Shown piece after piece: positions 1,937 to 63,770 of a stretch of 64,000 nucleotides of DNA. The notes below the pieces were generated by a model. The model had not been told where the DNA came from. It worked only from the letters and a program-made list of their open reading frames with translations, and searched no databases. Source of the stretch: Imperialibacter roseus (GTDB lineage Bacteria > Bacteroidota > Bacteroidia > Cytophagales > Cyclobacteriaceae); contig NZ_CP136051.1 of NCBI RefSeq assembly GCF_032999765.1, forward strand, positions 4,916,501 to 4,980,500, written 5' to 3'. The translations under genes and the position numbers were made by a program. Each line of letters opens with the position of its first letter. Position 1 is the stretch's first letter.

Positions 1937-2051
1937 GGCTTTGGGTATTAAATTGATTGGCCATTCGCCAAACTTCAATACCAAAGTCCTCCATTTTCAG
2001 CTAAATAGATATGATCTACAAGGGCCCTGTCCTCTGATTTTAGTCATAAAA

Positions 2052-2073: not shown

Positions 2074-2096
2074 CCTTCTATAACTTATGTCCTGAA

Positions 2097-2771: not shown

Positions 2772-2814
2772 TGAAAATCAATTTAGTAGTTAGTTAATCT
2801 TTTCGTAGTAATTT

Positions 2815-2845
2815 CAAATGTAACGATTAAGAAATTTAATTCAAA
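2815..2845 (-). promoter_or_regulatory. Bacteroidota-type promoter for TonB paralog 2
   Basis: On the minus strand the sequence reads TTTG, 19 bases, TACATTTG. This is an exact match to the -33/-7 consensus of the primary sigma factor in this phylum (TTTG-N19-TAnnTTTG). The upstream element lies in the last codons of the vanZ-like gene, and the start codon is about 44 bases downstream. Confidence 0.7.
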
Positions 2846-3225: not shown

Positions 3226-3226
3226 C

Positions 3227-3607
3227 TTAATGCCCGATAAGCTCCTTATAAGCAGCCGCTGACAAAAGCTCTTCTTTCTCCGAAATATTCGACACTTTTA
3301 CTTTGATCATCCAGCCCTCGCCATACGGATCGCTGTTTACAAGCTCTGGCTGCGCTTCCAGTGCCGCATTTACCTCAGTCACTTCTCCACTCAATGGCAT
3401 AAACAGGTCAGAAACAGTTTTTACAGCCTCAACGGTGCCAAATACTTCAGCAAGGGCAACCTCTTCTCCTTCTTTTTCTATTTCGACGTACACGATATCA
3501 CCAAGTTCGCTTTGAGCAAAATCAGTCACGCCAACAGTGGCTATATCTCCGTCAACTTTAACCCACTCGTGGTCTTTGGTATAAAGTAAATTCTCGGGAA
3601 TGTTCAT
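3227..3607 (-). CDS. gcvH: Glycine cleavage system H protein
   Basis: This 126-residue lipoyl carrier protein shuttles the aminomethyl group between the P, T and L proteins of the glycine cleavage complex. The lipoylated lysine is Lys63 in the motif [11 protein letters not shown], at the position expected from other GcvH proteins. Other conserved blocks are YTKDHEWV (residues 9-16), [17 protein letters not shown] and the C-terminal GEGWMIKV. Length is normal. No gcvP or gcvT is near, as is usual in this phylum, where gcvH sits with sprA. A minus-strand promoter can be read 27 bases upstream of the start. Confidence 0.97.
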
Positions 3608-3633
3608 GGATATCTCTTTTATTTTAAAGTCAG

Positions 3634-3664
3634 CAAAAGTACACTCTTCTGTTTTAAGTGAAAA
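3634..3664 (-). promoter_or_regulatory. Probable promoter for gcvH-vanZ
   Basis: Minus strand reads TTTT, 19 bases, TACTTTTG. This is one mismatch from the TTTG-N19-TAnnTTTG consensus. It lies between the sprA stop and the gcvH start and would allow gcvH to be expressed independently of sprA. Confidence 0.5.
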
Positions 3665-3665
3665 A

Positions 3666-37000: not shown

Positions 37001-37144
37001 CGTTACTCTCCCACTCATTCCAGAAGGGCCGATGCTTCGTGCCGACAAACCCTGGAACAACTCACTATTGATAGCCTGAGCACTAATTAGCCCCGGCAAA
37101 AAAAGTAGAATCAGGCTTAACTTAAAGAAAATTCTATCCCGCAT
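34022..37144 (-). CDS. VPS10/BNR-repeat beta-propeller protein, exported
   Basis: This 1040-residue protein has a signal peptide (residues 1-~23) followed by a double propeller built from sialidase-like Asp-box repeats. Examples are SENGGYKWTPIFDD, SNDGGTTWKHMG, TTDGGKTWSKI, SEDGGFTWKLV and TRDKGKTWTNV. The propeller part runs to about residue 740. A beta-sandwich (GALISFYVKETAGKKDSVKI ...) and a helical C-terminal domain (~870-1040) follow. Such VPS10-like proteins are common in Bacteroidota and often annotated glycosyl hydrolase, but no catalytic residues can be named here. It has no T9SS sorting domain. It is transcribed alone. Confidence 0.85.
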   Translation of the reverse strand: MRDRIFFKLSLILLFLPGLISAQAINSELFQGLSARSIGPSGMSGRVTSFDVDLSNPDIIYVGSASGGLWKSENGGYKWTPIFDDQPVTSIGAISIYQRNPNIIWVGTGEGNPRNSHNSGNGVYMSNDGGTTWKHMGLENTRNIHRIFVDPFNPEVVIVGVQGSAWQDTPDRGVYKTTDGGKTWSKILYVNERVGIGEMVRDPTNPNKFIANMWEFRRWPWFFKSGGAGSGMYVTMDAGTTWKKITSEDGLPEGELGKMGLAIAPGKPQVVYAIVEAKKNGFYKSEDGGFTWKLVTTKNIGDRPFYYAEIYVDPSNENRIYNIFSGTTVSEDGGKTFKTFTNVGLLHGDNHAFWIHPDDPSFMLIGNDGGMGVTRDKGVTWYFPENLPLGQFYHVSVDNDIPFNIYGGLQDNGSWTGPSSVYVRGRGDNNNLIYNSEWTRIGGGDGFDVIPDLENSRYGFAQSQKGNIQLYDKVTGDSEFRQPVHPDGTFLRFNWNAGVARDPHNANGVYMGSQFLHYSPDKGKTWEIISPDLTTNDPAKQKQLESGGITYDVTGAENHTTILAVSPSSLSKDIIWVGTDDGNVQLTRDKGKTWTNVAMNIKGVPAGSWVNQVHASSYNEGEAFVVINNYRRNDWAPWVFQTKDYGKTWKRLVNENSVRGFVHSFVQDPIEPRLMFVGTEFGLYMTVDGASNWVKWENGYPTASTMDLVIHPRDHDLVIGTYGRSVYVLDDIRPMRALATQGKQLLDKPLALFDVPDAYAASTTRGAKGYSATGDGLFAGENRPYGALISFYVKETAGKKDSVKIEILQEGQVVRTLYADAKKGFNRTSWDLRYKEVRKPDTSKPKPGTADSGGFTAVPGTYTVKVVHGEEIVTKEVKVLSDPRVTPITPQERERKLAMIKRWEASVTQLTIAVDNLREALAAVERVDKLLADREDDASKALKRAGKDIKAKVKALREPIFGKEDMQGIYRDPTTVEAIINLAANHLGDTYMVATPTQETILKQAEEAVKAPIADIGKFVQTDWGTYKEKVKEAQIQLIE

Positions 37145-47796: not shown

Positions 47797-48318
47797 TTAG
47801 TAAAGATAAACACCCATCCCTTTGCCCAGCACCACCTCTACATGTTCGTCTATTGTGGTGGACAGCTCGAAGCCTTTGTAGTTGGCACTAATAGGAAATC
47901 TTTTGTGACTACGATCAACCAACGTGGCAGTTTCAAGCCTTTTGATTTCAGCATTTAGTAAAACACTCATTCCGTAGGCCATGGTACGCCCACTGTTGAG
48001 CACATCATCCACCAGCACCACGCACTTGTTTTTGAGGCTCTCAGGCGGACAGTTGAGTTTTATCTCATCTGCGGAAGGATCGTCCTTATTTATGTCGAGC
48101 CTGACCAGGCTTAACTTCATTTTTGCTATGCCTTCCATTTCCGCAAGCAGCTTTTTGGCAATCTCAAACCCCTTGTCATATATGCCAACAAGCACTATTT
48201 CTTTTTCGTCAAGATTGAACTCAACAATCTCAAAAGCCATTCTTCGAAGCTTTTGAAGCACTTGAGGCTTGTCCAATATCATGTTACGGCGGCCGGCCGT
48301 CTGCTGATCCTTAGGCAT
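47797..48318 (-). CDS. Phosphoribosyltransferase (PyrR-like PRTase)
   Basis: This 173-residue type I PRTase has the PRPP-binding motif VVLVDDVLNSGRTMAYG, preceded by a flexible-loop region and LVRLDINKDD. The C-terminus LVDRSHKRFPISANYKGFELST ... VEVVLG is typical of PyrR-family proteins, which are uracil phosphoribosyltransferases or pyrimidine-operon regulators. It starts two bases after the stop of the Lrp-type gene. Confidence 0.88.
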   Translation of the reverse strand: MPKDQQTAGRRNMILDKPQVLQKLRRMAFEIVEFNLDEKEIVLVGIYDKGFEIAKKLLAEMEGIAKMKLSLVRLDINKDDPSADEIKLNCPPESLKNKCVVLVDDVLNSGRTMAYGMSVLLNAEIKRLETATLVDRSHKRFPISANYKGFELSTTIDEHVEVVLGKGMGVYLY

Positions 48319-48320
48319 TT

Positions 48321-48803
48321 TTACTGAGGAATTGGTAGAACTTTACTGTCCTTAAAGGTAGCAAGAATTACCATGGATTGGAGGCTGTCGACTACTTCAA
48401 TTTCGCTCACCTTCTCCAGCATGAGCTTTTGATAGGAGGCAATGTCTTTGGCGATTACTTTCAAAATAAAGTCGCCACTACCGGTAATGTGATGGCACTC
48501 AATCACATCTTCAATCCTGTTTATTTCATCGAGAAATTTATCTATGTTTCTCTTGTTGTGGCCTTTTAAAGTTACTTGCACAAAAGTGCTAACCCCTAAA
48601 CCAATTTTTTCTGTATCAAGCTTTGCGTGATAGCTTTTGATAAGCCCGGAAGTTTCGAGCTTTTTTACTCTTTCAAGTGTCGGGGCTGGAGAAAGTCCAA
48701 TTTCCTTGGACAGTTGGGCGTTAGTAATTTTGGCATTAGACTGAAGAATTTCCAAAATCTTTCGATCAGTCTTATCCAGTTTAACATTCAGGTTACTCAT
48801 CAT
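48321..48803 (-). CDS. Lrp/AsnC family transcriptional regulator
   Basis: This 160-residue protein starts at the ATG at 48803 (or 48800). It has an N-terminal helix-turn-helix (LDKTDRKILEILQSNAKITN ... LSKEIGLSPAPTLERVKKLE) and a C-terminal RAM/ligand-binding domain (VSTFVQVTLKGHN ... IECHHITGSGDFILKVIAKD). Lrp-type regulators respond to amino acids. The gene is followed after two bases by the PRTase, so the two are probably coexpressed. Confidence 0.94.
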   Translation of the reverse strand: MMSNLNVKLDKTDRKILEILQSNAKITNAQLSKEIGLSPAPTLERVKKLETSGLIKSYHAKLDTEKIGLGVSTFVQVTLKGHNKRNIDKFLDEINRIEDVIECHHITGSGDFILKVIAKDIASYQKLMLEKVSEIEVVDSLQSMVILATFKDSKVLPIPQ

Positions 48804-49036
48804 ATGGGTTGCCAAATAAAATTTGCTACAAAGCTAAGTATAATATACTTTATTCTAAAATTTTCTTGTTATCTGTCATTTACCAGTAATTTATTAAAGG
48901 AATTTGGTATTGCGTATAAAATTTTGCAATAAATTGTCACCAAAAGGAACTTCTGTCAATTTGACCTATTCCAAATAATATTCCTTAAACTACTGAAAGG
49001 TTGAATACCACTATGGAAGGAAAGGCAATCTGTACT

Positions 49037-52000
49037 TTACCTTTTTACGACTCTCCTAACTGCTTCATTTCCCTTGCTTTGCACTCTAAGCAGGTAGATT
49101 CCCTTCGTGTAGTGAGCCATTTGAAGTGACACAGCCGTTAAGCCGGCCTTTAGCGTATAGTATTTTTCGGAAAACATCGGCTGGCCCGTCATGCTTAACA
49201 CCGTAATTTCGGCATCCCCAGCTTCCGGGAGAATCAGCCCAAATGTAAGAAGGTCATCAACAGGGTTAGGGTATGGGTTGTTAACGAGAAACCCTTCAGT
49301 AAATGAAAGGCAATTTGTGTTGGCATAAGGTGAAAACTCAAACTCAGCGTCCTTCAGGACAGGCACAAGCTTGATGCATACCTTTTCCACGGGGTTGCTA
49401 GTTATTACCAACTCAAACTGCAAAGTATGAGAAACCGACTTGCCTGGCGCTACTGTTCCGCTGTATTTTTCTGAAATGGTGACCCGGTCATCAACTACTA
49501 TTTCGATGGGGAAATTCGTCTGCGCAATACTGCCCCGATTGGCGATATTCAGAATAAACTTCAGCTTCCCTTCTGTGTCGGTATAGTTAACCGACCGAAG
49601 TTGCAGGTCTACTTTTGGAAGAGCAACAGTGACAACCGTGCTGGTTGTGTCGGAGCAACCAAACTCATTATAGGCGACCAGGCTTACTAAGTAGTCGCCC
49701 TCCTTATCAAACACCTGACTGATATCCTGCTCGTTGCTTACAGAGGCGACACCGTCGCCAACGAACCAGGAATAAGCCGTCGCTCCATTTGATTCATTCG
49801 TGAAATTAACTGTCACCGGCAGTTGACCTACAGATAGTGAATGACTGAAGGCAGCCACGGGTGAGTTATTAATGGTCACATTCTTGCTGATCGATATTTC
49901 ACATCCTTTCTCAGTCTTGAGAAACAAGCTTACGTTATAGTTTCCTGCTTGTTTAAACTGGTAGTAGGCCTTGGGGCCGTTTGCAGAGGCCTGTCCTGCA
50001 AAATCCCATTTCCTGCTTATAATGGGATCATCTGGGCTGGTGCTTAAATCGCTGAATTCTGTTAGTTCGTTCACGCAGGCAGAAGTGAATCCGAAGTCAA
50101 CTGATGGCAATTCATTGACCTGCAAAGTTTTTGTCAATGAAATGGTGCAGAGGTTTTTCGTAGTTATCTGTAGCGTAACGTCGTAGCTCCCAGGTTTTTT
50201 GAAAACCTCGTTGACGGTTGGGGCGCTATAGAACTGATTATTGATACTCCACAAGCGGTCAATAATTGGATTGTCGGCGTCGCCGGCAGACTGGTCAACA
50301 AATGTTGTGGCCTGTCCTTCGCAACCTGTGTTGATTAAAAATGCAACAGTTGGTGACGGTAGTACATTAATTTCTCTGGTAAGTAATTTGGAACAGCCGT
50401 AGTTCGAACTAACAGACAGCGTAACAGTATATTTTCCCGAAGTTGGGAATTCAAATATCGGATTTCGTTCATTAGACGTACCAAGACCTGCAAAATCCCA
50501 GTTCCACTCCGTGATATTGGCATTCTCGGCAGTGCTTTGATCAGTGAACTGCACCGCAGCACCACTGCAGGCAAGATCATGTTTGAAGTCAGGAGTAGGT
50601 ATCGCACTTATCGCCACTTTCTCTGTAAGAGTGGTTTCGCAACCAAGGTCATTGGTTACAGTAAGGCTCACCTGGTAGTCTCCAATAGTCTCGAAAAACG
50701 TTTCAGGACTCTTTGTTGAACTTGTGTAGCCGTTCCCGAAATCCCAAGTGTAGCCGGTTATTCCGTCACCAGTGGTTGTGTTATTGAACTGCGTTGTGGG
50801 GCTAATGCAATTGCTGCCCACGGTAAATCCTACTGCTGGCCCTTCTAACAGGTTTATTGTCTTGCTCACCGACGCTTCGCAGCCCGGTATGCCAACGGTT
50901 AGCATAATGATTTTTTCTCCAGCGGTAGCAAACGCATAGGTGGTGTCTTTTCCCAGTATGGTGGCCTCACCATTAAAATCCCACGTCCAGGTGACAAGGC
51001 TGTCGGGCGGGAGATTGAGAGTTAAATCACTTAGAGAAAGTGTGTTGTTGCTACAAAGCCCTCCTTTGTAGGTAAAGCTAAAATCAGGTTCGCTGATGTC
51101 GTAAATGCCGATGGTTTGCCGTGATGTGTTGGAGCACCCACCGTCACTTTGTACGGTGAGGGTTACTTCGTATTCTCCGGCGGATGAGAATTGGTAGGTT
51201 GGATTAGGGTCGGTGGAGTCTTCTACCCCGTCGCCATCGAAGTCCCAGGAGTAGATAGTGATGTCGCCGGATAGGTTGGTGGAGGTGAAGGTGCTGAGCG
51301 CACCCACACATTGATTGATTGTACTAAAATCAATATCAGGGGCCTGTGAGTTCTGAACTGTTACTTCCTGAGAGGCATAGTCGGTATTCCCGTTAGAGGA
51401 GATAGCCAATAGTTCTACTACATAGCTCCCAGATTCAGTGTAAGTCACACCTTCAGGTTCAAAGGCCGTGGAACTATTCACACTTACTTTTGTACACTGG
51501 TCTACAAAGTTCAGCTGGCTAACCTTCTTATTGGCCTTGCTCATACCCAGCATCTGCCAGTTGGCACCCTCCTTGATCAAACGATGATTGAATAAGGAAC
51601 TCATCGTATTACTAAAGGTGCCTAAGGACTCCATACTCCCTCCCCCAGGCACCAGCGTTGCACCAAACTGATAGCGGTAAACACCAGCAGAGCCACTTAT
51701 CAACCCATAATACTTAAGCCCGTCTTTTACCAACTGAACATCGGTAGGTAATGAAACTGTGCCTAGCTCGCTAAATACAGCAGCACTCGACAAGTCAGTT
51801 CCAAATGACATATGATACATCTTGCTGTTGTTGTAGGAAGCAACCAAACCATACCAGTTGCCTGCACTCTGCCCAATACTTATCCCCAGCGGGCCAGACA
51901 AACCTGCTCCTGTACCCAATGTCGAAACATCACCTATCACAGGGTTGTTGGTGATACTACCCCCAAAGTTGATCGCCTTTACATTGTTCCCATTGAAGTT

Positions 52001-55000
52001 AGTCACAAAAACCAACCACTTCGATCCATCCCATTTTACTGTCAAACCACGTGGACCATTTAAACCTAATGTGCCTAATGAAACAGCTGTTGGTGTACCA
52101 GTCACCGAACTACCAAAGTTTAAACGTACTAGCGTGGAAGATCCAAAATTAGCTACCAAGCCATACCAGTTAGCCCCCTCCTTTACTAAACGTATCTGAG
52201 CAGGCCCCGATAATACACCTCCAAGTGTTCCTATCTCGACTTGAGTCGGAATATTGACCAACGAATTACCAAACTCCAACCGGTATAGCTTTGAACTAGT
52301 ACGGTCAAACAAAAATCCGTACCACATGCCCTGCTCTGTAACCACCTCAAAACCCTCAGGACTCGATAAACTACTGATATTAAGTGCTGTCGTCCCTACT
52401 CCAGCATGCTCCAAACCATTCTGACAAAAATCCCACTGGTAAGACACTCCATTCAAACTCTCATTACTCAACTGTAAACTCTCTCCCAAACACAAACTCC
52501 CGTCTAACGTAAAGCCCGCTGTGGGCCTTTCTGCTGGAGCTATGGTTACATCTTTAGTTAATTCATCAGCACAGCCCTGCTCTGTCGTTACTGCCAGTGA
52601 AACAGCATAAGTAGCAGGTGTTCCAAAAGAAAATACTTCTGTTTGATCAGACCCTGTACCTAAACCTGCAAAATCCCAACTCCACGAAACTACCTGATCT
52701 CCAGACTTGCTCTTATCTTCTCCCGTAAATTGTAATGGAACATTTTGAGTCAATTCGCCTGTCAAACTAAAATCTAACAGGGCCTGATCATTTACAATAA
52801 TCGGTTTAACAAGAATACTTTCGCATCCTGAGCCATTAGTTACCTTCAATTGAAGATTGTAGGTATTCGCTGCCAGATAAGTATGGGTGGGTTCAAACAC
52901 ATCACTTGTCGGCGTACCATCACCGAAGTTCCACTCATAGCTGACCCCTACCGTCTCAGATGTATTGACCATCTCTACAGCAGACCCAAAACAATTATTA
53001 CTCCAGCTAAAGCCTACTGGAGAACCCGCCACTAAGTCAATCGTATTTTGTGCTACGTTCACACAACCATCCGCCAGGGTAGCTGTCAGTGTTATCGTCT
53101 TTTCGCCGCCACTATCAAAAGCGTAATTGGGAGATGGGTCTGTGCTACTCCCTTCCCCATTAAAATCCCATACCCAACTCACAGGCGACCCCACATCAAA
53201 CGTACTTGTGTTTATAAAACTTAGCGGGGTGTTACTACATAAATTGGTGACCGGTGGGTCAAATGAGGCAATTGGAGAAGAGTAAATGTTTACCTGATTA
53301 CTTACTGTATTATTGCAACCTGACGAACTAGTCACTGTCAGCGTTACTTCATATTCCCCTGCTGAAGAATATTGAAAGGTTGGATTGGGGTCGGTGGAGT
53401 CTTCAAGCCCGTCGCCGTCGAAGTCCCAGGAATAAGTGGCGATGTCGCCGGATAGGTTGGTGGAGGTGAAGGTGCTGAGCGCACCCACACATTGATTGAT
53501 TGTACTAAAATCAATATCAGGGGCCTGTGAGTTCTGAACTGTTACTTCCTGAGAGGCATAGTCGGTATTCCCGTTAGAGGAGATAGCCAATAGTTCTACT
53601 ACATAGCTCCCAGATTCAGTGTAAGTCACACCTTCAGGTTCAAAGGCCGTGGAACTATTCACACTTACTTTTGTACACTGGTCTACAAAGTTCAGCTGGC
53701 TAACCTTCTTATTGGCCTTGCTCATACCCAGCATCTGCCAGTTGGCACCCTCCTTGATCAAACGATGATTGAATAAGGAACTCATCGTATTACTAAAGGT
53801 GCCTAAGGACTCTATACTCCCTCCCCCAGGCACCAGCGTTGCACCAAACTGATAGCGGTAAACACCAGCAGAGCCACTTATCAACCCATAATACTTAAGC
53901 CCGTCTTTTACCAACTGAACATCGGTAGGTAATGAAACTGTGCCTAGCTCGCTAAATACAGCAGCACTCGACAAGTCAGTTCCAAATGACATATGATACA
54001 TCTTGCTGTTGTTGTAGGAAGCAACCAAACCATACCAGTTGCCTGCACTCTGCCCAATACTTATCCCCAGCGGGCCAGACAAGCCCGCTCCTGTACCCAA
54101 TGTCGAAACATCACCTATCACAGGGTTGTTGGTGATACTACCCCCAAAGTTGATCGCCTTGATATTGTTCCCATTGAAGTTAGTCACAAAAACCAACCAC
54201 TTCGATCCATCCCATTTTACTGTCAAACCACGTGGACCATTTAAACCTAATGTGCCTAATGAAACAGCTGTTGGTGTACCAGTCACCGAACTACCAAAGT
54301 TTAAACGTACTAGCGTGGAAGTTCCAAAATTAGCTACCAAGCCATACCAGTTAGCCCCCTCCTTTACTAAACGTATCTGAGCAGGCCCCGATAATACACC
54401 TCCAAGTGTTCCTATCTCGACTTGAGTCGGAATATTGACCAACGAATTACCAAACTCCAACCGGTATAGCTTTGAACTAGTACGGTCAAACAAAAATCCG
54501 TACCACATGCCCTGCTCTGTAACCACCTCAAAACCCTCAGGACTCGATAAACTACTGATATTAAGTGCTGTCGTCCCTACTCCAGCATGCTCCAAACCAT
54601 TCTGACAAAAATCCCACTGGTAAGACACTCCATTCAAACTCTCATTACTCAACTGTAAACTCTCTCCCAAACACAAACTCCCGTCTAACGTAAAGCCCGC
54701 TGTGGGCCTTTCTGCTGGAGCTATGGTTACATCTTTAGTTAATTCATCAGCACAGCCCTGCTCTGTCGTTACTGCCAGTGAAACAGCATAAGTAGCAGGT
54801 GTTCCAAAAGAAAATACTTCTGTTTGATCAGACCCTGTACCTAAACCTGCAAAATCCCAACTCCACGAAACTACCTGATCTCCAGACTTGCTCTTATCTT
54901 CTCCCGTAAATTGTAATGGAGCATTTTGAGTCAATTCGCCTGTCAAACTAAAATCTAACAGGGCCTGATCATTTACAATAATCGGTTTAACAAGAATACT

Positions 55001-58000
55001 TTCGCATCCTGAGCCATTAGTTACCTTCAATTGAAGATTGTAGGTATTCGCTGCCAGATAAGTATGGGTGGGTTCAAACACATCACTTGTCGGCGTACCA
55101 TCACCGAAGTTCCACTCATAGCTGACCCCTACCGTCTCAGATGTATTGACCATCTCTACAGCAGACCCAAAACAATTATTACTCCAGCTAAAGCCTACTG
55201 GAGAACCCGCCACTAAGTCAATCGTATTTTGTGCTACGTTCACACAACCATCCGCCAGGGTAGCTGTCAGTGTTATCGTCTTTTCGCCGCCACTATCAAA
55301 AGCGTAATTGGGAGATGGGTCTGTGCTACTCCCTTCCCCATTAAAATCCCATACCCAACTCACAGGCGACCCCACATCAAACGTACTTGTGTTTATAAAA
55401 CTTAGCGGGGTGTTACTACATAAATTGGTGACCGGTGGGTCAAATGAGGCAATTGGAGAAGAGTAAATGTTTACCTGATTACTTACTGTATTATTGCAAC
55501 CTGACGAACTAGTCACTGTCAGCGTTACTTCATATTCCCCTGCTGAAGAATATTGAAAGGTTGGATTGGGGTCGGTGGAGTCTTCAAGCCCGTCGCCGTC
55601 GAAGTCCCAGGAATAAGTGGCGATGTCGCCGGATAGGTTGGTGGAGGTGAAGGTGCTGAGCGCACCCACACATTGATTGATTGTACTAAAATCAATATCA
55701 GGGGCCTGTGAGTTCTGAACTGTTACTTCCTGAGAGGCATAGTCGGTATTCCCGTTAGAGGAGATAGCCAATAGTTCTACTACATAGCTCCCAGATTCAG
55801 TGTAAGTCACACCTTCAGGTTCAAAGGCCGTGGAACTATTCACACTTACTTTTGTACACTGGTCTACAAAGTTCAGCTGGCTAACCTTCTTATTGGCCTT
55901 GCTCATACCCAGCATCTGCCAGTTGGCACCCTCCTTGATCAAACGATGATTGAATAAGGAACTCATCGTATTACTAAAGGTGCCTAAGGACTCCATACTC
56001 CCTCCCCCAGGCACCAGCGTTGCACCAAACTGATAGCGGTAAACACCAGCAGAGCCACTTATCAACCCATAATACTTAAGCCCGTCTTTTACCAACTGAA
56101 CATCGGTAGGTAATGAAACTGTGCCTAGCTCGCTAAATACAGCAGCACTCGACAAGTCAGTTCCAAATGACATATGATACATCTTGCTGTTGTTGTAGGA
56201 AGCAACCAAACCATACCAGTTGCCTGCACTCTGCCCAATACTTATCCCCAGCGGGCCAGACAAACCTGCTCCTGTACCCAATGTCGAAACATCACCTATC
56301 ACAGGGTTGTTGGTGATACTACCCCCAAAGTTGATCGCCTTTACATTGTTCCCATTGAAGTTAGTCACAAAAACCAACCACTTCGATCCATCCCATTTTA
56401 CTGTCAAACCACGTGGACCATTTAAACCTAATGTGCCTAATGAAACAGCTGTTGGTGTACCAGTCACCGAACTACCAAAGTTTAAACGTACTAGCGTGGA
56501 AGATCCAAAATTAGCTACCAAGCCATACCAGTTAGCCCCCTCCTTTACTAAACGTATCTGAGCAGGCCCCGATAATACACCTCCAAGTGTTCCTATCTCG
56601 ACTTGAGTCGGAATATTGACCAACGAATTACCAAACTCCAACCGGTATAGCTTTGAACTAGTACGGTCAAACAAAAATCCGTACCACATGCCCTGCTCTG
56701 TAACCACCTCAAAACCCTCAGGACTCGATAAACTACTGATATTAAGTGCTGTCGTCCCTACTCCAGCATGCTCCAAACCATTCTGACAAAAATCCCACTG
56801 GTAAGACACTCCATTCAAACTCTCATTACTCAACTGTAAACTCTCTCCCAAACACAAACTCCCGTCTAACGTAAAGCCCGCTGTGGGCCTTTCTGCTGGA
56901 GCTATGGTTACATCTTTAGTTAATTCATCAGCACAGCCCTGCTCTGTCGTTACTGCCAGTGAAACAGCATAAGTAGCAGGTGTTCCAAAAGAAAATACTT
57001 CTGTTTGATCAGACCCTGTACCTAAACCTGCAAAATCCCAACTCCACGAAACTACCTGATCTCCAGACTTGCTCTTATCTTCTCCCGTAAATTGTAATGG
57101 AACATTTTGAGTCAATTCGCCTGTCAAACTAAAATCTAACAGGGCCTGATCATTTACAATAATCGGTTTAACAAGAATACTTTCGCATCCTGAGCCATTA
57201 GTTACCTTCAATTGAAGATTGTAGGTATTCGCTGCCAGATAAGTATGGGTGGGTTCAAACACATCACTTGTCGGCGTACCATCACCGAAGTTCCACTCAT
57301 AGCTGACCCCTACCGTCTCAGATGTATTGACCATCTCTACAGCAGACCCAAAACAATTATTACTCCAGCTAAAGCCTACTGGAGAACCCGCCACTAAGTC
57401 AATCGTATTTTGTGCTACGTTCACACAACCATCCGCCAGGGTAGCTGTCAGTGTTATCGTCTTTTCGCCGCCACTATCAAAAGCGTAATTGGGAGATGGG
57501 TCTGTGCTACTCCCTTCCCCATTAAAATCCCATACCCAACTCACAGGCGACCCCACATCAAACGTACTTGTGTTTATAAAACTTAGCGGGGTGTTACTAC
57601 ATAAATTGGTGACCGGTGGGTCAAATGAGGCAATTGGAGAAGAGTAAATGTTTACCTGATTACTTACTGTATTATTGCAACCTGACGAACTAGTCACTGT
57701 CAGCGTTACTTCATATTCCCCTGCTGAAGAATATTGAAAGGTTGGATTGGGGTCGGTGGAGTCTTCAAGCCCGTCGCCGTCGAAGTCCCAGGAATAAGTG
57801 GCGATGTCGCCGGATAGGTTGGTGGAGGTGAAGGTGCTGAGCGCACCCACACATTGATTGATTGTACTAAAATCAATATCAGGGGCCTGTGAGTTCTGAA
57901 CTGTTACTTCCTGAGAGGCATAGTCGGTATTCCCGTTAGAGGAGATAGCCAATAGTTCTACTACATAGCTCCCAGATTCAGTGTAAGTCACACCTTCAGG

Positions 58001-59146
58001 TTCAAAGGCCGTGGAACTATTCACACTTACTTTTGTACACTGGTCTACAAAGTTCAGCTGGCTAACCTTCTTATTGGCCTTGCTCATACCCAGCATCTGC
58101 CAGTTGGCACCCTCCTTGATCAAACGATGATTGAATAAGGAACTCATCGTATTACTAAAGGTGCCTAAGGACTCTATACTCCCTCCCCCAGGCACCAGCG
58201 TTGCACCAAACTGATAGCGGTAAACACCAGCAGAGCCACTTATCAACCCATAATACTTAAGCCCGTCTTTTACCAACTGAACATCGGTAGGTAATGAAAC
58301 TGTGCCTAGCTCGCTAAATACAGCAGCACTCGACAAGTCAGTTCCAAATGACATATGATACATCTTGCTGTTGTTGTAGGAAGCAACCAAACCATACCAG
58401 TTGCCTGCACTCTGCCCAATACTTATCCCCAGCGGGCCAGACAAGCCCGCTCCTGTACCCAATGTCGAAACATCACCTATCACAGGGTTGTTGGTGATAC
58501 TACCCCCAAAGTTGATCGCCTTGATATTGTTCCCATTGAAGTTAGTCACAAAAACCAACCACTTCGATCCATCCCATTTTACTGTCAAACCACGTGGACC
58601 ATTTAAACCTAATGTGCCTAATGAAACAGCTGTTGGTGTACCAGTCACCGAACTACCAAAGTTTAAACGTACTAGCGTGGAAGTTCCAAAATTAGCTACC
58701 AAGCCATACCAGTTAGCCCCCTCCTTTACTAAACGTATCTGAGCAGGCCCCGATAATACACCTCCAAGTGTTCCTATCTCGACTTGAGTCGGAATATTGA
58801 CCAACGAATTACCAAACTCCAACCGGTATAGCTTTGAACTAGTACGGTCAAACAAAAATCCGTACCACATGCCCTGCTCTGTAACCACCTCAAAACCCTC
58901 AGGACTCGATAAACTACTGATATTAAGTGCTGTCGTCCCTACTCCAGCATGCTCCAAACCATTCTGACAAAAATCCCACTGGTAAGACACTCCATTCAAA
59001 CTCTCATTACTCAACTGTAAACTCTCTCCCAAACACAAACTCCCGTCTAACGTAAAGCCCGCTGTGGGCGACTGTGCCTGTAGCGTCAAGTCAAGAGAGA
59101 CTATCGAAAAACAACAACACAGATATATGAAAAAATACCGCACCAT
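49037..59146 (-). CDS. Giant repeat-bearing T9SS surface protein (PKD and propeller)
   Basis: This 3369-residue protein has a signal peptide (MVRYFFIYLCCCFSIVSLDL, cleavage near LQAQS). Three full and one partial copy of a 727-residue repeat follow (residues 27-753, 754-1480, 1481-2207, 2208-~2629). In each repeat the first PKD domain (opening PTAGFTLDGSLCLGESLQL to YQWDF) is interrupted by ~310 residues containing six blades with the pattern WYGL...LNFGSS. It resumes at EPEGVTYTESGSYVVEL. Four further PKD domains complete the unit. Most PKDs share a Cys near the start and a GC near the end, suggesting disulfides. Five to six non-repeated PKDs, an Ig/CARDB-like domain (~3130-3260) and a C-terminal T9SS sorting domain (NPYPNPVDDLL ... 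TKGIYLLRVQ) follow. Its ATG overlaps the sulfotransferase stop by one base (TGATG). A role as an adhesin or surface filament is an inference. Confidence 0.92.
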   Translation of the reverse strand: MVRYFFIYLCCCFSIVSLDLTLQAQSPTAGFTLDGSLCLGESLQLSNESLNGVSYQWDFCQNGLEHAGVGTTALNISSLSSPEGFEVVTEQGMWYGFLFDRTSSKLYRLEFGNSLVNIPTQVEIGTLGGVLSGPAQIRLVKEGANWYGLVANFGTSTLVRLNFGSSVTGTPTAVSLGTLGLNGPRGLTVKWDGSKWLVFVTNFNGNNIKAINFGGSITNNPVIGDVSTLGTGAGLSGPLGISIGQSAGNWYGLVASYNNSKMYHMSFGTDLSSAAVFSELGTVSLPTDVQLVKDGLKYYGLISGSAGVYRYQFGATLVPGGGSIESLGTFSNTMSSLFNHRLIKEGANWQMLGMSKANKKVSQLNFVDQCTKVSVNSSTAFEPEGVTYTESGSYVVELLAISSNGNTDYASQEVTVQNSQAPDIDFSTINQCVGALSTFTSTNLSGDIATYSWDFDGDGLEDSTDPNPTFQYSSAGEYEVTLTVTSSSGCNNTVSNQVNIYSSPIASFDPPVTNLCSNTPLSFINTSTFDVGSPVSWVWDFNGEGSSTDPSPNYAFDSGGEKTITLTATLADGCVNVAQNTIDLVAGSPVGFSWSNNCFGSAVEMVNTSETVGVSYEWNFGDGTPTSDVFEPTHTYLAANTYNLQLKVTNGSGCESILVKPIIVNDQALLDFSLTGELTQNVPLQFTGEDKSKSGDQVVSWSWDFAGLGTGSDQTEVFSFGTPATYAVSLAVTTEQGCADELTKDVTIAPAERPTAGFTLDGSLCLGESLQLSNESLNGVSYQWDFCQNGLEHAGVGTTALNISSLSSPEGFEVVTEQGMWYGFLFDRTSSKLYRLEFGNSLVNIPTQVEIGTLGGVLSGPAQIRLVKEGANWYGLVANFGSSTLVRLNFGSSVTGTPTAVSLGTLGLNGPRGLTVKWDGSKWLVFVTNFNGNNVKAINFGGSITNNPVIGDVSTLGTGAGLSGPLGISIGQSAGNWYGLVASYNNSKMYHMSFGTDLSSAAVFSELGTVSLPTDVQLVKDGLKYYGLISGSAGVYRYQFGATLVPGGGSMESLGTFSNTMSSLFNHRLIKEGANWQMLGMSKANKKVSQLNFVDQCTKVSVNSSTAFEPEGVTYTESGSYVVELLAISSNGNTDYASQEVTVQNSQAPDIDFSTINQCVGALSTFTSTNLSGDIATYSWDFDGDGLEDSTDPNPTFQYSSAGEYEVTLTVTSSSGCNNTVSNQVNIYSSPIASFDPPVTNLCSNTPLSFINTSTFDVGSPVSWVWDFNGEGSSTDPSPNYAFDSGGEKTITLTATLADGCVNVAQNTIDLVAGSPVGFSWSNNCFGSAVEMVNTSETVGVSYEWNFGDGTPTSDVFEPTHTYLAANTYNLQLKVTNGSGCESILVKPIIVNDQALLDFSLTGELTQNAPLQFTGEDKSKSGDQVVSWSWDFAGLGTGSDQTEVFSFGTPATYAVSLAVTTEQGCADELTKDVTIAPAERPTAGFTLDGSLCLGESLQLSNESLNGVSYQWDFCQNGLEHAGVGTTALNISSLSSPEGFEVVTEQGMWYGFLFDRTSSKLYRLEFGNSLVNIPTQVEIGTLGGVLSGPAQIRLVKEGANWYGLVANFGTSTLVRLNFGSSVTGTPTAVSLGTLGLNGPRGLTVKWDGSKWLVFVTNFNGNNIKAINFGGSITNNPVIGDVSTLGTGAGLSGPLGISIGQSAGNWYGLVASYNNSKMYHMSFGTDLSSAAVFSELGTVSLPTDVQLVKDGLKYYGLISGSAGVYRYQFGATLVPGGGSIESLGTFSNTMSSLFNHRLIKEGANWQMLGMSKANKKVSQLNFVDQCTKVSVNSSTAFEPEGVTYTESGSYVVELLAISSNGNTDYASQEVTVQNSQAPDIDFSTINQCVGALSTFTSTNLSGDIATYSWDFDGDGLEDSTDPNPTFQYSSAGEYEVTLTVTSSSGCNNTVSNQVNIYSSPIASFDPPVTNLCSNTPLSFINTSTFDVGSPVSWVWDFNGEGSSTDPSPNYAFDSGGEKTITLTATLADGCVNVAQNTIDLVAGSPVGFSWSNNCFGSAVEMVNTSETVGVSYEWNFGDGTPTSDVFEPTHTYLAANTYNLQLKVTNGSGCESILVKPIIVNDQALLDFSLTGELTQNVPLQFTGEDKSKSGDQVVSWSWDFAGLGTGSDQTEVFSFGTPATYAVSLAVTTEQGCADELTKDVTIAPAERPTAGFTLDGSLCLGESLQLSNESLNGVSYQWDFCQNGLEHAGVGTTALNISSLSSPEGFEVVTEQGMWYGFLFDRTSSKLYRLEFGNSLVNIPTQVEIGTLGGVLSGPAQIRLVKEGANWYGLVANFGSSTLVRLNFGSSVTGTPTAVSLGTLGLNGPRGLTVKWDGSKWLVFVTNFNGNNVKAINFGGSITNNPVIGDVSTLGTGAGLSGPLGISIGQSAGNWYGLVASYNNSKMYHMSFGTDLSSAAVFSELGTVSLPTDVQLVKDGLKYYGLISGSAGVYRYQFGATLVPGGGSMESLGTFSNTMSSLFNHRLIKEGANWQMLGMSKANKKVSQLNFVDQCTKVSVNSSTAFEPEGVTYTESGSYVVELLAISSNGNTDYASQEVTVQNSQAPDIDFSTINQCVGALSTFTSTNLSGDITIYSWDFDGDGVEDSTDPNPTYQFSSAGEYEVTLTVQSDGGCSNTSRQTIGIYDISEPDFSFTYKGGLCSNNTLSLSDLTLNLPPDSLVTWTWDFNGEATILGKDTTYAFATAGEKIIMLTVGIPGCEASVSKTINLLEGPAVGFTVGSNCISPTTQFNNTTTGDGITGYTWDFGNGYTSSTKSPETFFETIGDYQVSLTVTNDLGCETTLTEKVAISAIPTPDFKHDLACSGAAVQFTDQSTAENANITEWNWDFAGLGTSNERNPIFEFPTSGKYTVTLSVSSNYGCSKLLTREINVLPSPTVAFLINTGCEGQATTFVDQSAGDADNPIIDRLWSINNQFYSAPTVNEVFKKPGSYDVTLQITTKNLCTISLTKTLQVNELPSVDFGFTSACVNELTEFSDLSTSPDDPIISRKWDFAGQASANGPKAYYQFKQAGNYNVSLFLKTEKGCEISISKNVTINNSPVAAFSHSLSVGQLPVTVNFTNESNGATAYSWFVGDGVASVSNEQDISQVFDKEGDYLVSLVAYNEFGCSDTTSTVVTVALPKVDLQLRSVNYTDTEGKLKFILNIANRGSIAQTNFPIEIVVDDRVTISEKYSGTVAPGKSVSHTLQFELVITSNPVEKVCIKLVPVLKDAEFEFSPYANTNCLSFTEGFLVNNPYPNPVDDLLTFGLILPEAGDAEITVLSMTGQPMFSEKYYTLKAGLTAVSLQMAHYTKGIYLLRVQSKGNEAVRRVVKR
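51260..52526 (-). repeat. Repeat unit R4, truncated (1267 of 2181 bp)
   Basis: This is the 5'-coding 58% of the unit. It ends where near-identity stops in the second PKD domain at about 51260, after which only protein-level similarity remains. It belongs to sequence type B. Confidence 0.9.
52527..54707 (-). repeat. Repeat unit R3, 2181 bp
   Basis: Complete unit of type A, matching R1 at every diagnostic site I compared (for example Gly-Thr in NFGTSTL, Ile in NNIKAI and GGSIESL, Val in TQNVPLQ). Confidence 0.93.
54708..56888 (-). repeat. Repeat unit R2, 2181 bp
   Basis: Complete unit of type B (NFGSSTL, NNVKAI, GGSMESL, TQNAPLQ). It matches R4 where both exist. It differs from type A at seven or so bases that I could spot. 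Confidence 0.93.
56889..59069 (-). repeat. Repeat unit R1, 2181 bp
   Basis: First unit in coding order, type A. It begins at the C in GTGGGC (59069) directly after the signal-peptide-coding part; the bases before it differ from those before R2-R4. Confidence 0.93.
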
Positions 59147-60099
59147 CAGTTATTTTGCCCCTTTTGATATTGATATTTAGCCTTTAACCAAAAAGATCTA
59201 AAAACATTCTTAGACAAAAAACCTTTGCTATCAGGAATTTCTAGTTCGCAAAAATCTAAATAGTCATCAAAAGTATTAGTTTTCCTTAACTTCAAGCCGA
59301 AAAGTTCATACTCAAGCCCTGTTTTCGAATTCAAATAGTGTGCGTATCCCCGGTAAAAATCCTGCCAAGGCCTAGTTTCTTTCTCCCAACTGTGTTGTCT
59401 GAGCGGTCTACTATTTAACATATCTTTCTCTTTACTATGGGGATCTCCGAATTTTCCGAAAACGGCTGTGTGTCGTACAATATCGACGTTAACCAAATCT
59501 TCTTGCAACCCAAGCCAAGCATAGATCTCTCCAACCACCTTTTTCGGATTCTCTACCATGCTTTCATAAGTCTGTGTATACACCCGACCACTTCCTTCAG
59601 CTGACAACCTAAATTCCTCGATCAACAAAGGTGCCTTTAATATGTCTCTTCGGTAGGGGTATAAGTCAAAAGGGCTTTTAATATTCCATGTGCTTCTCAT
59701 TGAGGAAACTACCTCGATTGGGCTTCTCGTAAGAAGTATAATCTTCGCAGTCGGGAAAAACTCGTATATCAAATCAACTACTTCATAATACCTTGGCGTC
59801 TTATCAATAAAGTACTTTGAATCAATACTAGAGCTATCCTGGTACACATCCTCTATAAAATGAGCCAACCTATCCCTAAAAGAAGGTTGACCAATTCCAT
59901 TATTAATAAACTCCTGCACAGCAGACAACGCCAGGTCAGAGTTGTATGCACAGGTATTTAGTCCACTTTTCAAGAACCCGAGAAAGGGTAATAACAACCA
60001 ACTCTCTGGAGTGGTAGACACAACTGAAGTGTTCGAAAGCAACCTCTGAAGCAGCGTCGACCCGCTTCTTGGTTGCGAGATTATAAATACTAGCTGCAT
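59146..60099 (-). CDS. Sulfotransferase family protein
   Basis: This 317-residue protein has the PAPS-binding loop SQPRSGSTLLQRLLSN (residues 8-23) and the second motif IILLTRSPIEVVSSMRSTW, matching the sulfotransferase-3 family. It would transfer sulfate from PAPS to a sugar or tyrosine; the acceptor cannot be read. The stop TGA shares its A with the ATG of the giant surface protein, so the two are translated in tandem. Its start overlaps the glycosyltransferase upstream by ten bases. The block reads as one operon. Confidence 0.88.
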   Translation of the reverse strand: MQLVFIISQPRSGSTLLQRLLSNTSVVSTTPESWLLLPFLGFLKSGLNTCAYNSDLALSAVQEFINNGIGQPSFRDRLAHFIEDVYQDSSSIDSKYFIDKTPRYYEVVDLIYEFFPTAKIILLTRSPIEVVSSMRSTWNIKSPFDLYPYRRDILKAPLLIEEFRLSAEGSGRVYTQTYESMVENPKKVVGEIYAWLGLQEDLVNVDIVRHTAVFGKFGDPHSKEKDMLNSRPLRQHSWEKETRPWQDFYRGYAHYLNSKTGLEYELFGLKLRKTNTFDDYLDFCELEIPDSKGFLSKNVFRSFWLKAKYQYQKGQNN

Positions 60100-61025
60100 G
60101 CTTCTGTTTTATGAAAAACCCGTACAAAAAATCTTTTTGGATATTTCAAAATTAATATCGCCAGGCTTGTAATCAGACTAATAATTCTATTGCTTTCATA
60201 GTACTCGTACATCTCCGCAAATCTCCTTTGAAACAAAATATTTTGAATTTTCCCTATTGTATCCCTTCGTTGCGATAAAGGTAACTCCCGGATCAAGCTG
60301 AAGTTCTTTTTGTATACATATTCGAGAGCATTAATGTGCTTGCGAGCCAAGACACTAGAAAGACCTTCCGAATGTCTTCTATACACCACACCTGGCAAGG
60401 GACAAATGGATGTTATAGCTGATCTTTGTGCTCTTATTTTTAGATCAAAGTCCTCATATAGCGAAAGTTTTTCGTCAAACCCCCCAATTTGATCTAACAG
60501 TGACTTCTTAATGAGTTCGCACCGGTACAAAGCTCCTTTTGGGAAGCTTCTGGCCACAACAGCACTAAAAATATCTTCGCCTTCAAGTCCATCAATAAAC
60601 CCTTGGTCATCCCAAAGAGTTTTATCCTTTCCATTTTGGTCTACGAAAGAAAAGTTACTAAAAACACAATTAACCTGAGGCTTATTTTGGAGCACATCCA
60701 GCTCATTTCTCAGTTTGTCTGGCTCCCAATAATCATCTCCATCCAAGAAAGATATCCAATCACCCTTGGAAAGACCAAGGGCCTTATTTCTATTAGCGGA
60801 GACTCCCAAATTTGAACTATTTTGTATCCCAAGAACAATTTCCGGGTTAGATTTCTGGAATTTTTGAACGATGCCAAATGAGTCATCGCTCGAGTTGTCA
60901 TCCAAAACTATTATTTCATAGGGTCTGACGGTTTGTTCAAGTACCGACTGGATGGCCTCCGATAAGTAATTGGCATTGTTATAACTCGTTATAATAACAG
61001 ATACTTTAGGAAATATAAGATCCAT
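60090..61025 (-). CDS. Glycosyltransferase family 2
   Basis: This 311-residue GT-A enzyme has the start VSVIITSYNNANYLSEAIQS, the nucleotide-binding IIVLDDNSSDDS, the DXD-type motif WISFLDGDDYWEPDK and a C-terminal catalytic region (GGFDEKLSLYEDFDLKIRAQ). It has no strong membrane helix until the C-terminal hydrophobic segment (ISLITSLAILILKY). It probably adds a sugar to a surface glycan. It overlaps the sulfotransferase gene by ten bases. Confidence 0.92.
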   Translation of the reverse strand: MDLIFPKVSVIITSYNNANYLSEAIQSVLEQTVRPYEIIVLDDNSSDDSFGIVQKFQKSNPEIVLGIQNSSNLGVSANRNKALGLSKGDWISFLDGDDYWEPDKLRNELDVLQNKPQVNCVFSNFSFVDQNGKDKTLWDDQGFIDGLEGEDIFSAVVARSFPKGALYRCELIKKSLLDQIGGFDEKLSLYEDFDLKIRAQRSAITSICPLPGVVYRRHSEGLSSVLARKHINALEYVYKKNFSLIRELPLSQRRDTIGKIQNILFQRRFAEMYEYYESNRIISLITSLAILILKYPKRFFVRVFHKTEACS

Positions 61026-61422: not shown

Positions 61423-62487
61423 ATGAGTAGCACTCCCCTTCAATCACAACAAATTACCTTTACCAGATTCATAGCCGCTATCACGATTGTGTTTTTTCAC
61501 TTCGGCGGTGATTTAGAATACATAAACAATCCAATATTCCTTCCAATCAAGCAATACGGCAACCTGGGTGTGTCCTACTTTTTCCTGATATCTGGCGTAA
61601 TTATGTCCCTTGTTTATTCCAACAAAGTTAAACTGTCAAAGGCATTTTTTAGAGATTTCTATATTATTAGGCTATCAAGAGTCTATCCCATTTATTTATT
61701 TTCACTAATCGTTGTCATCTTTTTCACCAAATACTTCTGGCGCAGCCAATTAGATCTTAGCGAAATACTGTTCTCTGTGTTCTTAATTCAATCGTGGGTT
61801 CCTGGCAAAGAACTGACATTAAACTTCCCGGGATGGTCGCTTTCAGTTGAAATATTTTTCTACCTCTTTTTCCCATTCCTGATACTTTTTTTTCGAAAAA
61901 TAGGAAACCGAAAAACGTATATGGTCTCCTTTATCATTTGGTTTATAACACAGGGCGTATTTATCTGCTATTTTACAGAGGGCAGTCACCTCCTTTACAA
62001 CCCAATAATGCATTCTGGAACTTTCATTATTGGCGCTGCCTTTGGTATTTTTCTGAAATCAAATGCAGACCGACTAACATTTATTCCTCCAAATATTTGG
62101 GCAGTTCTGCTGATTATTTCGACGCTCTCTTTTGTTGCTATCATCTATAATGCCCCTGCCTGGTTAGCGTTATCTCACAACGGTTTGTTGTCACCGCTAT
62201 TCCTGATAATAACTATGAGCCTTTGTCTTGACAGAAAAAGCATTGGTAGAGCATTTAAAATTCCGCTTGCCGTCTTTCTCGGCAATATTTCATATGGAAT
62301 ATATATCTACCAATACCCCGTCAAAATTTTTACGTCATATATAAACGACAAATTTGGACTCCGAAATTGGAACGCCTATCATTTCTATTATTTCCTTGTT
62401 ATGCTATTGATAGTAGCATCTTTATCATTTATTGTTTTGGAAAGCCCAATCAGAGATCGGGTAAAAAAACTGATCAACTATACCTGA
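61423..62487 (+). CDS. Acyltransferase 3 family membrane protein
   Basis: This 354-residue protein with about ten membrane helices opens with the typical QITFTRFIAAITIVFFHFGGD, containing the catalytic-type Arg and His of the family. VSYFFLISGVIMSL follows, then WSLSVEIFFYLFFPFL and a C-terminal helix LSFIVLESPIRDR. Such enzymes O-acetylate or succinylate sugars of surface polysaccharides. It is oriented opposite to its neighbours, converging on the family 4 glycosyltransferase with an 18-base gap. Confidence 0.92.
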   Translation: MSSTPLQSQQITFTRFIAAITIVFFHFGGDLEYINNPIFLPIKQYGNLGVSYFFLISGVIMSLVYSNKVKLSKAFFRDFYIIRLSRVYPIYLFSLIVVIFFTKYFWRSQLDLSEILFSVFLIQSWVPGKELTLNFPGWSLSVEIFFYLFFPFLILFFRKIGNRKTYMVSFIIWFITQGVFICYFTEGSHLLYNPIMHSGTFIIGAAFGIFLKSNADRLTFIPPNIWAVLLIISTLSFVAIIYNAPAWLALSHNGLLSPLFLIITMSLCLDRKSIGRAFKIPLAVFLGNISYGIYIYQYPVKIFTSYINDKFGLRNWNAYHFYYFLVMLLIVASLSFIVLESPIRDRVKKLINYT

Positions 62488-62505: not shown

Positions 62506-63714
62506 TCAGATCATTTTGAGAATTTGAGAATAAACTTTGATCCCTTTTTCAACAGTGAAACTGTTGCACGCAAATTCTCTTATTGCATTTGAGTCGAAAA
62601 TCAAGTCTAGCTGGTCAGCAATTACTGGATCGACCTCGACCTTAATTCCTGCCCGACATAAATCCATTATATCATCTACATCTCCCACATTTGCGTTATA
62701 GGCTACCGGCAAGCCCATCGCCAAATATTCTGCCAACTTCGTTGGAGAAGATGCCTGCTTGCTAAAAACTGGCTGAATAAAAGAGATCGCCAGGTGGCCT
62801 AAAGAAAGGAAGAGCGGCATTTCAGCCCGTTTGCATGCCCTAACCACAATATCGTCCGTTGAGAGCCCTTTATTTCTGGCTGCGTCGACAATCTGCTGAG
62901 GGTCGTCCCTGGTCAACAAAAGAAATTTCCATTTGCCATCGAGCTTTTGCAAACCCATGAAGTACTGTAGCATCTCGCTTAACATATACCAAGTGCCAAC
63001 TGAGCCTGCATATACCAATATCTTGTCTTCGGAGTTAATCCCAAGCAGCTTTCTCGCTTCATTTCTCTGTTGAGCGTCCAAAAGAGCTGGATTGAATAGA
63101 CCAGTATCTACACAACATGGAATAATTGAGATGCTTTCCGGTAGCGGGTTGTTATGCAAAAAACCTTTTTGAATAATCTCCTTGGCCTTGCTAGTAAGTA
63201 CAACCACATGAACAGCCTCCCTAAGCAGCTGCTTCTCCGTCTTTTTGAAGTACCGATAGACCAACCGAAAGATAAAGTTGGCCTGAGGCCAACTACCACC
63301 CTCAACTCTCTCGTCCGCCCAAAACCCCCTCATGTCGAAAATGAAGGGAACACCCGACCTACGCTTAAGAAATAGCCCGACAATTCCCGGGAGGTAGCTT
63401 CGACACCAGGTAGCAGAAAAGCTGAATTGCCTGTGGAGGGCTACAGCTTTTCGTTTCATCAGGTAAACGTCTCGTATGGCAGATAAAATAGGAGGGTATT
63501 TATGATATTTTTGAGGGTGCCAGGTAATAGAAGTGCCCAGAATTATTTTCTCAATATTGCCCTTATGTTCTTTATAATTTTGAGGTTTTTCACAACTCAG
63601 TATGTGAAAACTATAATCAAACTTACCTAACGCCAACAGGTAGGGCAGTATCTGGCTTTGTCCCAAAGGGTCAGTGAGGCCATCGTATGTAATAAATAAA
63701 ATCTTATTTTTCAT
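62506..63714 (-). CDS. Glycosyltransferase family 4
   Basis: This 402-residue GT-B enzyme starts at the ATG at 63714 (another in-frame ATG lies at 63735). It has ILFITYDGLTDPLGQSQILP at the N-terminus, DMRGFWADERVEGG in the acceptor half, the donor-site start KILVYAGSVGTWYML and the family signature SPTKLAEYLAMGLPVAYNA. It probably transfers a sugar from a nucleotide donor to a surface glycan precursor. Confidence 0.93.
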   Translation of the reverse strand: MKNKILFITYDGLTDPLGQSQILPYLLALGKFDYSFHILSCEKPQNYKEHKGNIEKIILGTSITWHPQKYHKYPPILSAIRDVYLMKRKAVALHRQFSFSATWCRSYLPGIVGLFLKRRSGVPFIFDMRGFWADERVEGGSWPQANFIFRLVYRYFKKTEKQLLREAVHVVVLTSKAKEIIQKGFLHNNPLPESISIIPCCVDTGLFNPALLDAQQRNEARKLLGINSEDKILVYAGSVGTWYMLSEMLQYFMGLQKLDGKWKFLLLTRDDPQQIVDAARNKGLSTDDIVVRACKRAEMPLFLSLGHLAISFIQPVFSKQASSPTKLAEYLAMGLPVAYNANVGDVDDIMDLCRAGIKVEVDPVIADQLDLIFDSNAIREFACNSFTVEKGIKVYSQILKMI

Positions 63715-63770
63715 ATTCGCCACAATGCACTTCATTTGCTGCCTGGCCCGAGGAAGTTCCTCAAATTGTT

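Follow-up and report, generated by a model that had tools for sequence, protein, structure and literature searches.

Near-identical propeller modules in a predicted surface-protein array of Imperialibacter roseus, and the tendency of propeller and polysaccharide cluster to be exchanged as one block in its relatives

The S-layer protein RsaA of Caulobacter is bound to the O-antigen, and the C-terminal domain of Wzt recognises its own O-polysaccharide. PDB entry 1l0q, which we take to be an archaeal surface-layer protein, combines a propeller with a PKD domain. In Mycoplasma genitalium, adhesins vary by drawing on donor copies archived elsewhere in the genome. One report deals with sequence variability of an M. 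genitalium adhesin and uses the terms gene conversion and tandem repeats (PMC2169797). Periscope Proteins have highly identical tandem repeats, the copy number of which is expected to vary by homologous recombination (PMC8201768, PMC9704523). In Porphyromonas gingivalis, T9SS cargo is conjugated to lipopolysaccharide, A-LPS (PMC7468200). Surface polysaccharides switch by recombination; their recogniser in the same cell is seldom known.

We analysed one stretch of 64,000 nucleotides of the I. roseus genome, hereafter the window. The minus-strand gene at 49037..59146, delineated from the ORF list with Pfam (PKD_4, PKD and Por_Secre_tail) and NCBIfam (TIGR04183) matches, encodes 3369 residues. 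It contains one signal peptide, four modules of propeller and PKD domains, one PKD tail and one T9SS type A sorting domain. The signal peptide (residues 1–26, 59069..59146, minus strand) was judged by eye from the translation. The C-terminal sorting domain (49049..49273, minus strand; Pfam and NCBIfam) scored 35.3 bits with TIGR04183, the T9SS type A model, against the curated cut-off of 23, and 33.9 with PF18962 against the cut-off of 27. Together with the signal peptide, these scores bear out the suggestion of an earlier, sequence-only reading that the product is a cell-surface protein. The genome also carries a T9SS translocon gene, recognised through SprA_N (PF14349, E 1e-188). This SprA gene is at 3666-10754 (minus strand) and shares the window with its likely cargo, the repeat protein. 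Another propeller-type protein, of 1040 residues and with sortilin/BNR-type repeats, is encoded at 34022-37144 (minus strand), 12 kb from the array.

Compared to itself at an offset of 2181 bp, the window is near-identical over 51260-59069; an extra 90 bp (51170-51259) match at 80%, with 18 mismatches. A single open frame of 3369 residues on the minus strand takes in all the repeat units. Self-comparison and column alignment placed three modules of 727 residues at 56888..59068 (module 1, type A), 54707..56887 (module 2, type B) and 52526..54706 (module 3, exactly identical to module 1). Seven columns are variable (51632, 51902, 51905, 51980, 51982, 52141 and 52740), each of them again at +2181; they touch six codons and alter the residue in four. 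About seven differences between the copies had been counted by the sequence-only reading. The alignment of the units moreover revealed a perfect A-B-A-B alternation, which that reading had missed: unit 1 is identical to unit 3, and unit 2 is identical to unit 4 over their common stretch. The divergence between types A and B is 0.32% (7/2181 columns). Tandem Repeats Finder, run with a longest period of 500, reported no repeat at the array.

The earlier description of four 2181-bp units was right about the repeats; it was wrong in letting the fourth unit end at about 51260. Copy 4 is one complete module (50345..52525, minus strand); as indicated by alignments and trees, it is identical to module 2 to about 51260 and then continues into a diverged PKD half. 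Compared to unit 1, it is near-identical up to module residue ∼430; beyond this point it stays in register, with a different PKD set that is only 26–62% identical in amino acids to the other copies per 40-residue block. The first ∼430 residues hold a PKD domain with the six-bladed propeller set into it, as well as the start of the next PKD domain. The last ∼300 residues differ; alignments and trees placed the terminal-type PKD half at about 50345-51235. Since copy 4 runs on in register past residue ∼430, the array consists of four modules, of which the first three share one type of PKD half and the last has a different one. The protein minus three modules is 1188 residues in size, like the single-module homologs.

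The genome is a single contig of 6,747,663 bases. DNA search of this genome identified no further copy of the 2181-bp unit beyond the array, nor any donor propeller elsewhere. The protein-level search gave 35 matches; the other 31 all start at unit residue 351 or later, within the PKD part.

As predicted by AlphaFold2 for module residues 1–420 (mean pLDDT 89.9), six four-stranded blades, counted by hand from the strand list of the model, are located between strands of one PKD domain. The predicted fold is thus a PKD domain that carries a six-bladed β-propeller as an insertion; in the full module, a PKD stalk comes after it. In module 1, the propeller covers module residues 43–340 (58049..58942); its counterparts in modules 2–4 are at 55868-56761, 53687-54580 and 51506-52399, all on the minus strand. 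Foldseek search with the propeller returned mixed families at TM of about 0.5, including LGI1 EPTP, Drp35, NHL and GH43, and NCBIfam search with the propeller alone gave no match. Profile search against solved structures found chiefly PKD and designed-propeller matches; PDB 1l0q was matched weakly (E 0.042) and in the PKD part of the profile only, the propeller not being covered.

The repeat gene forms the end of a variable polysaccharide biosynthesis cluster, on the same strand, that extends past the window edge. A sulfotransferase gene (59146-60099, minus strand) overlaps the start of the repeat gene; it is followed by a family-2 glycosyltransferase (60090-61025, minus strand), an acyltransferase (61423-62487, plus strand) and another glycosyltransferase (62506-63735, minus strand), all identified from the ORF list and Pfam. 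The acyltransferase is thus on the opposite strand. Overall, the upstream cluster contains glycosyltransferases, methyltransferases, an epimerase, the sulfotransferase, an asparagine-synthase-like gene and Wzm/Wzt-type exporter genes. The downstream neighbours, identified by Pfam, are an Lrp/AsnC regulator (48321-48815) and a phosphoribosyltransferase (47797-48318), both on the minus strand. These two genes are downstream at 17 of the 32 homolog loci searched; among further loci, Lrp is present at 38/59 and the phosphoribosyltransferase at 36/59, more than 500 bp of downstream sequence being available in 49/59. At four other loci, for which 20 upstream ORFs were scanned, glycosyltransferases and further sugar genes predominate. 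Among 59 loci, the nearest upstream ORF has the same strand as the gene in 57, and so do 576 of all 619 upstream ORFs; Wzt-like proteins are encoded within 11 kb at 17/59. At locus L296, two adjacent genes of the TMEM260-like O-mannosyltransferase family (1027-4991) lie beyond the polysaccharide cluster.

Propeller profile matches were found in 162 of 390 genomes in a sample of the family and in 63 of 390 genomes in a sample of the order. The first relatives included 16 single-module homologs, which are 1185–1219 residues in size and have no internal DNA repeat; over the first two homolog sets, one module only was present in 16 of 22 full-length homologs. Multi-module proteins are present in several genera. 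The protein of genome G561, from another genus and related at the family level, is 3367 residues in size; it contains four 727-residue modules, in a layout almost the same as that of the window gene. Proteins with three propellers are present in a second family; their spacing is different, and they are not homogenised. The lengths found in different species, about 1190, 1900–1980, 2635 and 3367–3369 residues, agree with the earlier suggestion that length changes by steps of about 727 residues, here between species.

Some genes depart from the regular layout. Within the array of the 3585-residue ORF at L232 (G446), a truncated propeller remnant is followed by 14 prolines (residues 2301–2314). 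The 1661-residue ORF at L221 (G442) has only about 100 residues of propeller in its first module, stretches of which are 98–99% identical to later parts of the gene; this looks like an internal deletion between modules. In module 1 of L139 (G008), 97 bp of the propeller occur again, exactly, 195 bp further on, and the propeller is longer there. At L056, 126 bp near the gene start are repeated exactly at the contig end, and a short-read assembler may leave such a copy at a collapsed tandem repeat. Arrays in draft genomes may be under-counted.

The propeller and PKD halves of the modules gave different trees. In the 34-module PKD tree, nine non-terminal modules from different genomes form one clade (100/99); in the 34-module propeller tree, the propellers cluster by gene. 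The non-terminal clade was rejected by the AU test when imposed on the propellers (p-AU 1.4e-6). Same-gene grouping, when imposed on the PKD halves, was rejected in four of five arrays (window, p 0.013; G008, 0.029; L055, 0.016; L058, 1.4e-4); one PKD clade of the G003 copies was not rejected (p 0.30). With 48 modules, the pattern was clearest inside one genus. The first PKD halves of G350, G385 and G397 group together and the last ones group with the single-module protein of G338, each group with 100/99 support, whereas the propellers pair inside each gene (100/99 to 100/100) and are far apart between species; the AU tests in this genus gave p of 3.4e-4 or less. In the 48-module PKD tree, the clade of all 12 non-terminal modules was weakly supported (40/93).

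We also determined the nearest match of each propeller among 111 distinct propellers. In 12 of 17 arrays of the family, every propeller is closest to one from its own gene; own-gene matches are partial in two (G446 and G421) and absent in three (G418, G519 and G024), although the trees pair the two propellers of G024. The window and G008, which both pair by gene in the trees, were left out of this count. In the most alike arrays, the propellers are 98–100% identical in nucleotides. Because the identity is at the DNA level, it points to recombination, not to selection on the protein; purifying selection was rejected as its cause for these arrays, in which the synonymous sites are alike too. The comparison shows that, within multi-module genes, the propellers are mostly homogenised and the PKD halves hold old positional identities. 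The active homogenisation proposed by the sequence-only reading is supported and made more precise, since in the relatives it concerns mainly the propeller half. That the propeller spreads through the array has good support as regards the pattern; the process is what we infer.

Where the sequences of relatives diverge was examined in pairs, with positions counted from about the gene start. The DNA of G416 and G417 is 97.8% identical from +1210 onward, but has no match from −1.5 kb to +1210; farther upstream, only one 1.4-kb piece (64%) and one 105-bp piece match. The tails of this pair are 98% alike and the propellers 23%, with few upstream genes in common. The reverse was observed for G036 and G314, which are 93–98% identical between −11.5 kb and +1 kb; their identity is 87% over the following 0.5 kb, 65–71% from +1.5 to +3 kb and 66–81% near and past the gene end. 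G059 and G332 show the first arrangement again, with small weak upstream matches, none in the first 1 kb and 87–95% identity from +1.5 kb. At the codon level, a switch at module residue about 380–440 was present in five of six contrasting pairs, the change being gradual, over about 100 codons, in G036/G314; the sixth pair, G359/G589, lacks a sharp step. Copy 4 of the window diverges from its siblings at about residue 430. As shown by comparison of the sequences, the cluster and the gene start with its propeller have been exchanged as one block in several species pairs.

The array of G561 looks like an intermediate between exchange and homogenisation. The propellers of modules 2–4 are 98–100% identical in nucleotides, whereas module 1 has an unrelated propeller (36% in amino acids); its PKD half is nevertheless 100% identical in amino acids to that of module 2 from residue 481. 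No donor of the odd propeller was found among the 111 distinct propellers, the best match being 36% and in the same gene. In G446, an unrelated propeller is likewise in module 1, on the cluster side. The most diverged propeller of G003 is in module 3, not in module 1; this speaks against a general rule by which the 5′ part of module 1 would be the odd segment in every array, and the rule was dropped. The two-module arrays of G515, G528 and G008 cannot show which copy is odd. The window array itself is in the homogenised state only, without visible exchange.

To relate propeller and cluster, we used 59 loci, chosen by hand from genera with at least two members, which give 235 within-genus pairs. 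Upstream sharing was the share of upstream homologs counted at 40% identity, and the tail was defined as the 400 residues after the propeller in the same protein. Propeller identity correlates with upstream sharing (rho 0.665), compared to 0.10 for propeller and own tail and 0.08 for tail and upstream genes, all over the 235 pairs. None of 5000 within-genus permutations reached 0.665 (mean 0.25, highest 0.57); the locus pairs are not independent, and the permutation allows for this only through its shuffling within genera. The partial correlation on the downstream core genes, over the 119 pairs with both downstream genes readable, is 0.748, and none of 3000 permutations was as high (mean 0.36, highest 0.61). 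With the downstream core genes themselves, the tail correlates at 0.69 and the propeller at 0.21. Three genera have 10 or more such pairs, and rho within them is 0.60, 0.45 and 0.66. By upstream distance, rho over the loci is 0.53 (0–1.5 kb), 0.38 (1.5–4 kb), 0.55 (4–8 kb) and 0.63 (8–11 kb), without fall-off to 11 kb.

The tails are at least 75% alike in 12 pairs. In eight of them the propellers are below 60%, and the upstream share averages 0.21, compared to 0.84 for the other four. Exceptions are present on both sides: two of 12 pairs with propellers of at least 60% share less than 0.3 upstream, and five of 169 pairs with propellers below 35% share at least 0.4. G418 and G421 keep the nearby upstream genes (65–80% in nucleotides to about +180) and the tail, but their propellers differ, with a score of 15%, the floor for no match. 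G473 and G518 share 0.86 upstream and have propellers of 28%. Conversely, the propeller of G501 and G473 is kept (74–82% in nucleotides) without a collinear upstream DNA match, although by protein 0.44 of the upstream genes still match; in G059/G382 and G397/G421, the propellers are common (64–73%) and few upstream genes are. Taken together, the comparisons well support the view that cluster and propeller form one exchangeable block, as a tendency with exceptions.

Based on these observations, we think it probable that the gene encodes a T9SS-exported surface array, that its cluster and propeller are exchanged as a block and that the propeller, which we take as the specificity domain, spreads through the modules. 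The conserved PKD region would serve as the anchor for homologous recombination, through which incoming DNA replaces the cluster together with the first propeller. The new propeller would then be spread through the array, and the number of modules altered, by gene conversion or by unequal crossing-over. The propeller may recognise the surface polysaccharide of its own cluster or a binding partner of that polysaccharide; a receptor for this polysaccharide is its most likely, putative role. With its repeated identical propellers, the protein would bind the cell surface multivalently or cross-link it. A fuller version we consider slightly less likely than not: cluster and receptor would be a horizontally exchanged specificity block, the array would be reconverted module by module to the new receptor, multivalent display would be matched to the current polysaccharide, and G561 would have been caught before conversion.

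The correlation could also come from linkage alone. The cluster would be exchanged for its own sake, and the propeller, with a ligand unrelated to the glycan, would ride along beside the recombination anchor in the PKD sequence. The propeller does directly adjoin the cluster, with the nearest upstream ORF on the same strand at 57/59 loci, the switch is located in PKD sequence, and the propellers of G418 and G421 differ despite common nearby upstream genes; physical linkage by itself could yield the correlation without functional fit or glycan binding. However, arrays hold the same propeller in modules that do not adjoin the cluster, and the tie to genes 8–11 kb off is as strong as that to adjacent ones. 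Both points are compatible with linkage as well, and we rate this explanation as somewhat unlikely. Less probable, and in our judgment unlikely, is that identical repeats mainly let recombination alter the reach of the protein, the propeller having no special role. Such length variation would agree with the near-identity of the tandem units and with protein lengths that differ across species by steps of about 727 residues, and Periscope Proteins have highly identical tandem repeats (PMC9704523). But the propeller is within the unit and not atop a stalk, the propeller half is homogenised in preference to the stalk, and 16 of 22 full-length homologs have one module only.

Two further explanations concern the window array itself. 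If fewer true modules existed and the assembler had walked a repeat loop twice, an exact A-B-A-B order would result, and there are indeed zero differences between units 1 and 3, and between units 2 and 4 over their common stretch. The published assembly of I. roseus P4T (CP136051) was produced with Flye at 202x, the nanopore reads used being 8 kb or longer (PMC11237651); since such reads can span the 7.8-kb array, the assembled copy number of four modules is probably right. Arrays are also present in other assemblies. In the draft of Imperialibacter sp. EC-SDR9, both flanks match at 88–93% in nucleotides and the gene is split over two contigs, both ending inside the array; neither a full propeller nor the middle of the array was found in this draft, as expected of an unresolved repeat. 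We regard an assembly artefact as very unlikely. Recent tandem duplication of one module, the last PKD half differing through fast divergence, would agree with an A-B divergence of only 0.32% (7/2181 columns). However, in most blocks the PKD half of module 4 differs from the others at more than one residue in two, next to ∼430 residues that are near-identical; the non-terminal PKD halves are related to one another across genomes, and the AU test disfavours duplication (p 0.013 for the window's own modules). Simple recent duplication was rejected on the copy 4 alignment, the PKD tree and the AU test, and we regard it as extremely unlikely. The very recent expansion suggested by the sequence-only reading is part of the story only; the divergence of the two PKD types seems to predate that of the genera.

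Hypervariable propellers are paired with polysaccharide clusters across many species, and specificity could be read by comparing the pairs. The array is a natural bacterial case of domain-limited concerted evolution, in which adjacent parts of one gene have different histories, often with a sharp switch. If the propellers bind the glycan of their own cluster, they would amount to a ready-made set of binders, each specific for a glycan, and the repeats would explain how multivalency is kept while specificity changes. By its title, one reference in the genome report concerns a Permian groundwater isolate with the ability to aggregate a microalga (PMC11237651); taking the isolate as I. roseus or a close species, aggregation is a possible phenotype. 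Our literature search, made by title or abstract start and largely in open-access sources, found no description of the pairing of propeller and polysaccharide cluster.

Like RsaA and Wzt, the array would present a protein domain matched to the polysaccharide from nearby genes; to our knowledge, neither of the two has tandem propeller modules or intragenic spread of a recognition domain. Like 1l0q, it combines propeller and PKD in one surface protein; different from 1l0q, the propeller is here inserted inside the PKD domain. Unlike in M. genitalium, DNA search shows no copy elsewhere in the I. roseus genome. The repeat protein shares with the A-LPS system of P. gingivalis its nature as T9SS cargo, for which a bond to the surface polysaccharide is known in that species; the description of that system consulted here makes no mention of a cargo gene inside a polysaccharide cluster, nor of block exchange with it (PMC7468200). 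Like Periscope Proteins, it has highly identical tandem units in one surface chain, here with seven variable columns in 2181. Periscope Proteins carry an N-terminal ligand domain on a repeated stalk (PMC8201768, PMC9704523). In I. roseus, by contrast, the 727-residue unit itself includes the propeller, and nothing but the signal peptide stands before module 1; homogenisation concerns mainly the propeller half.
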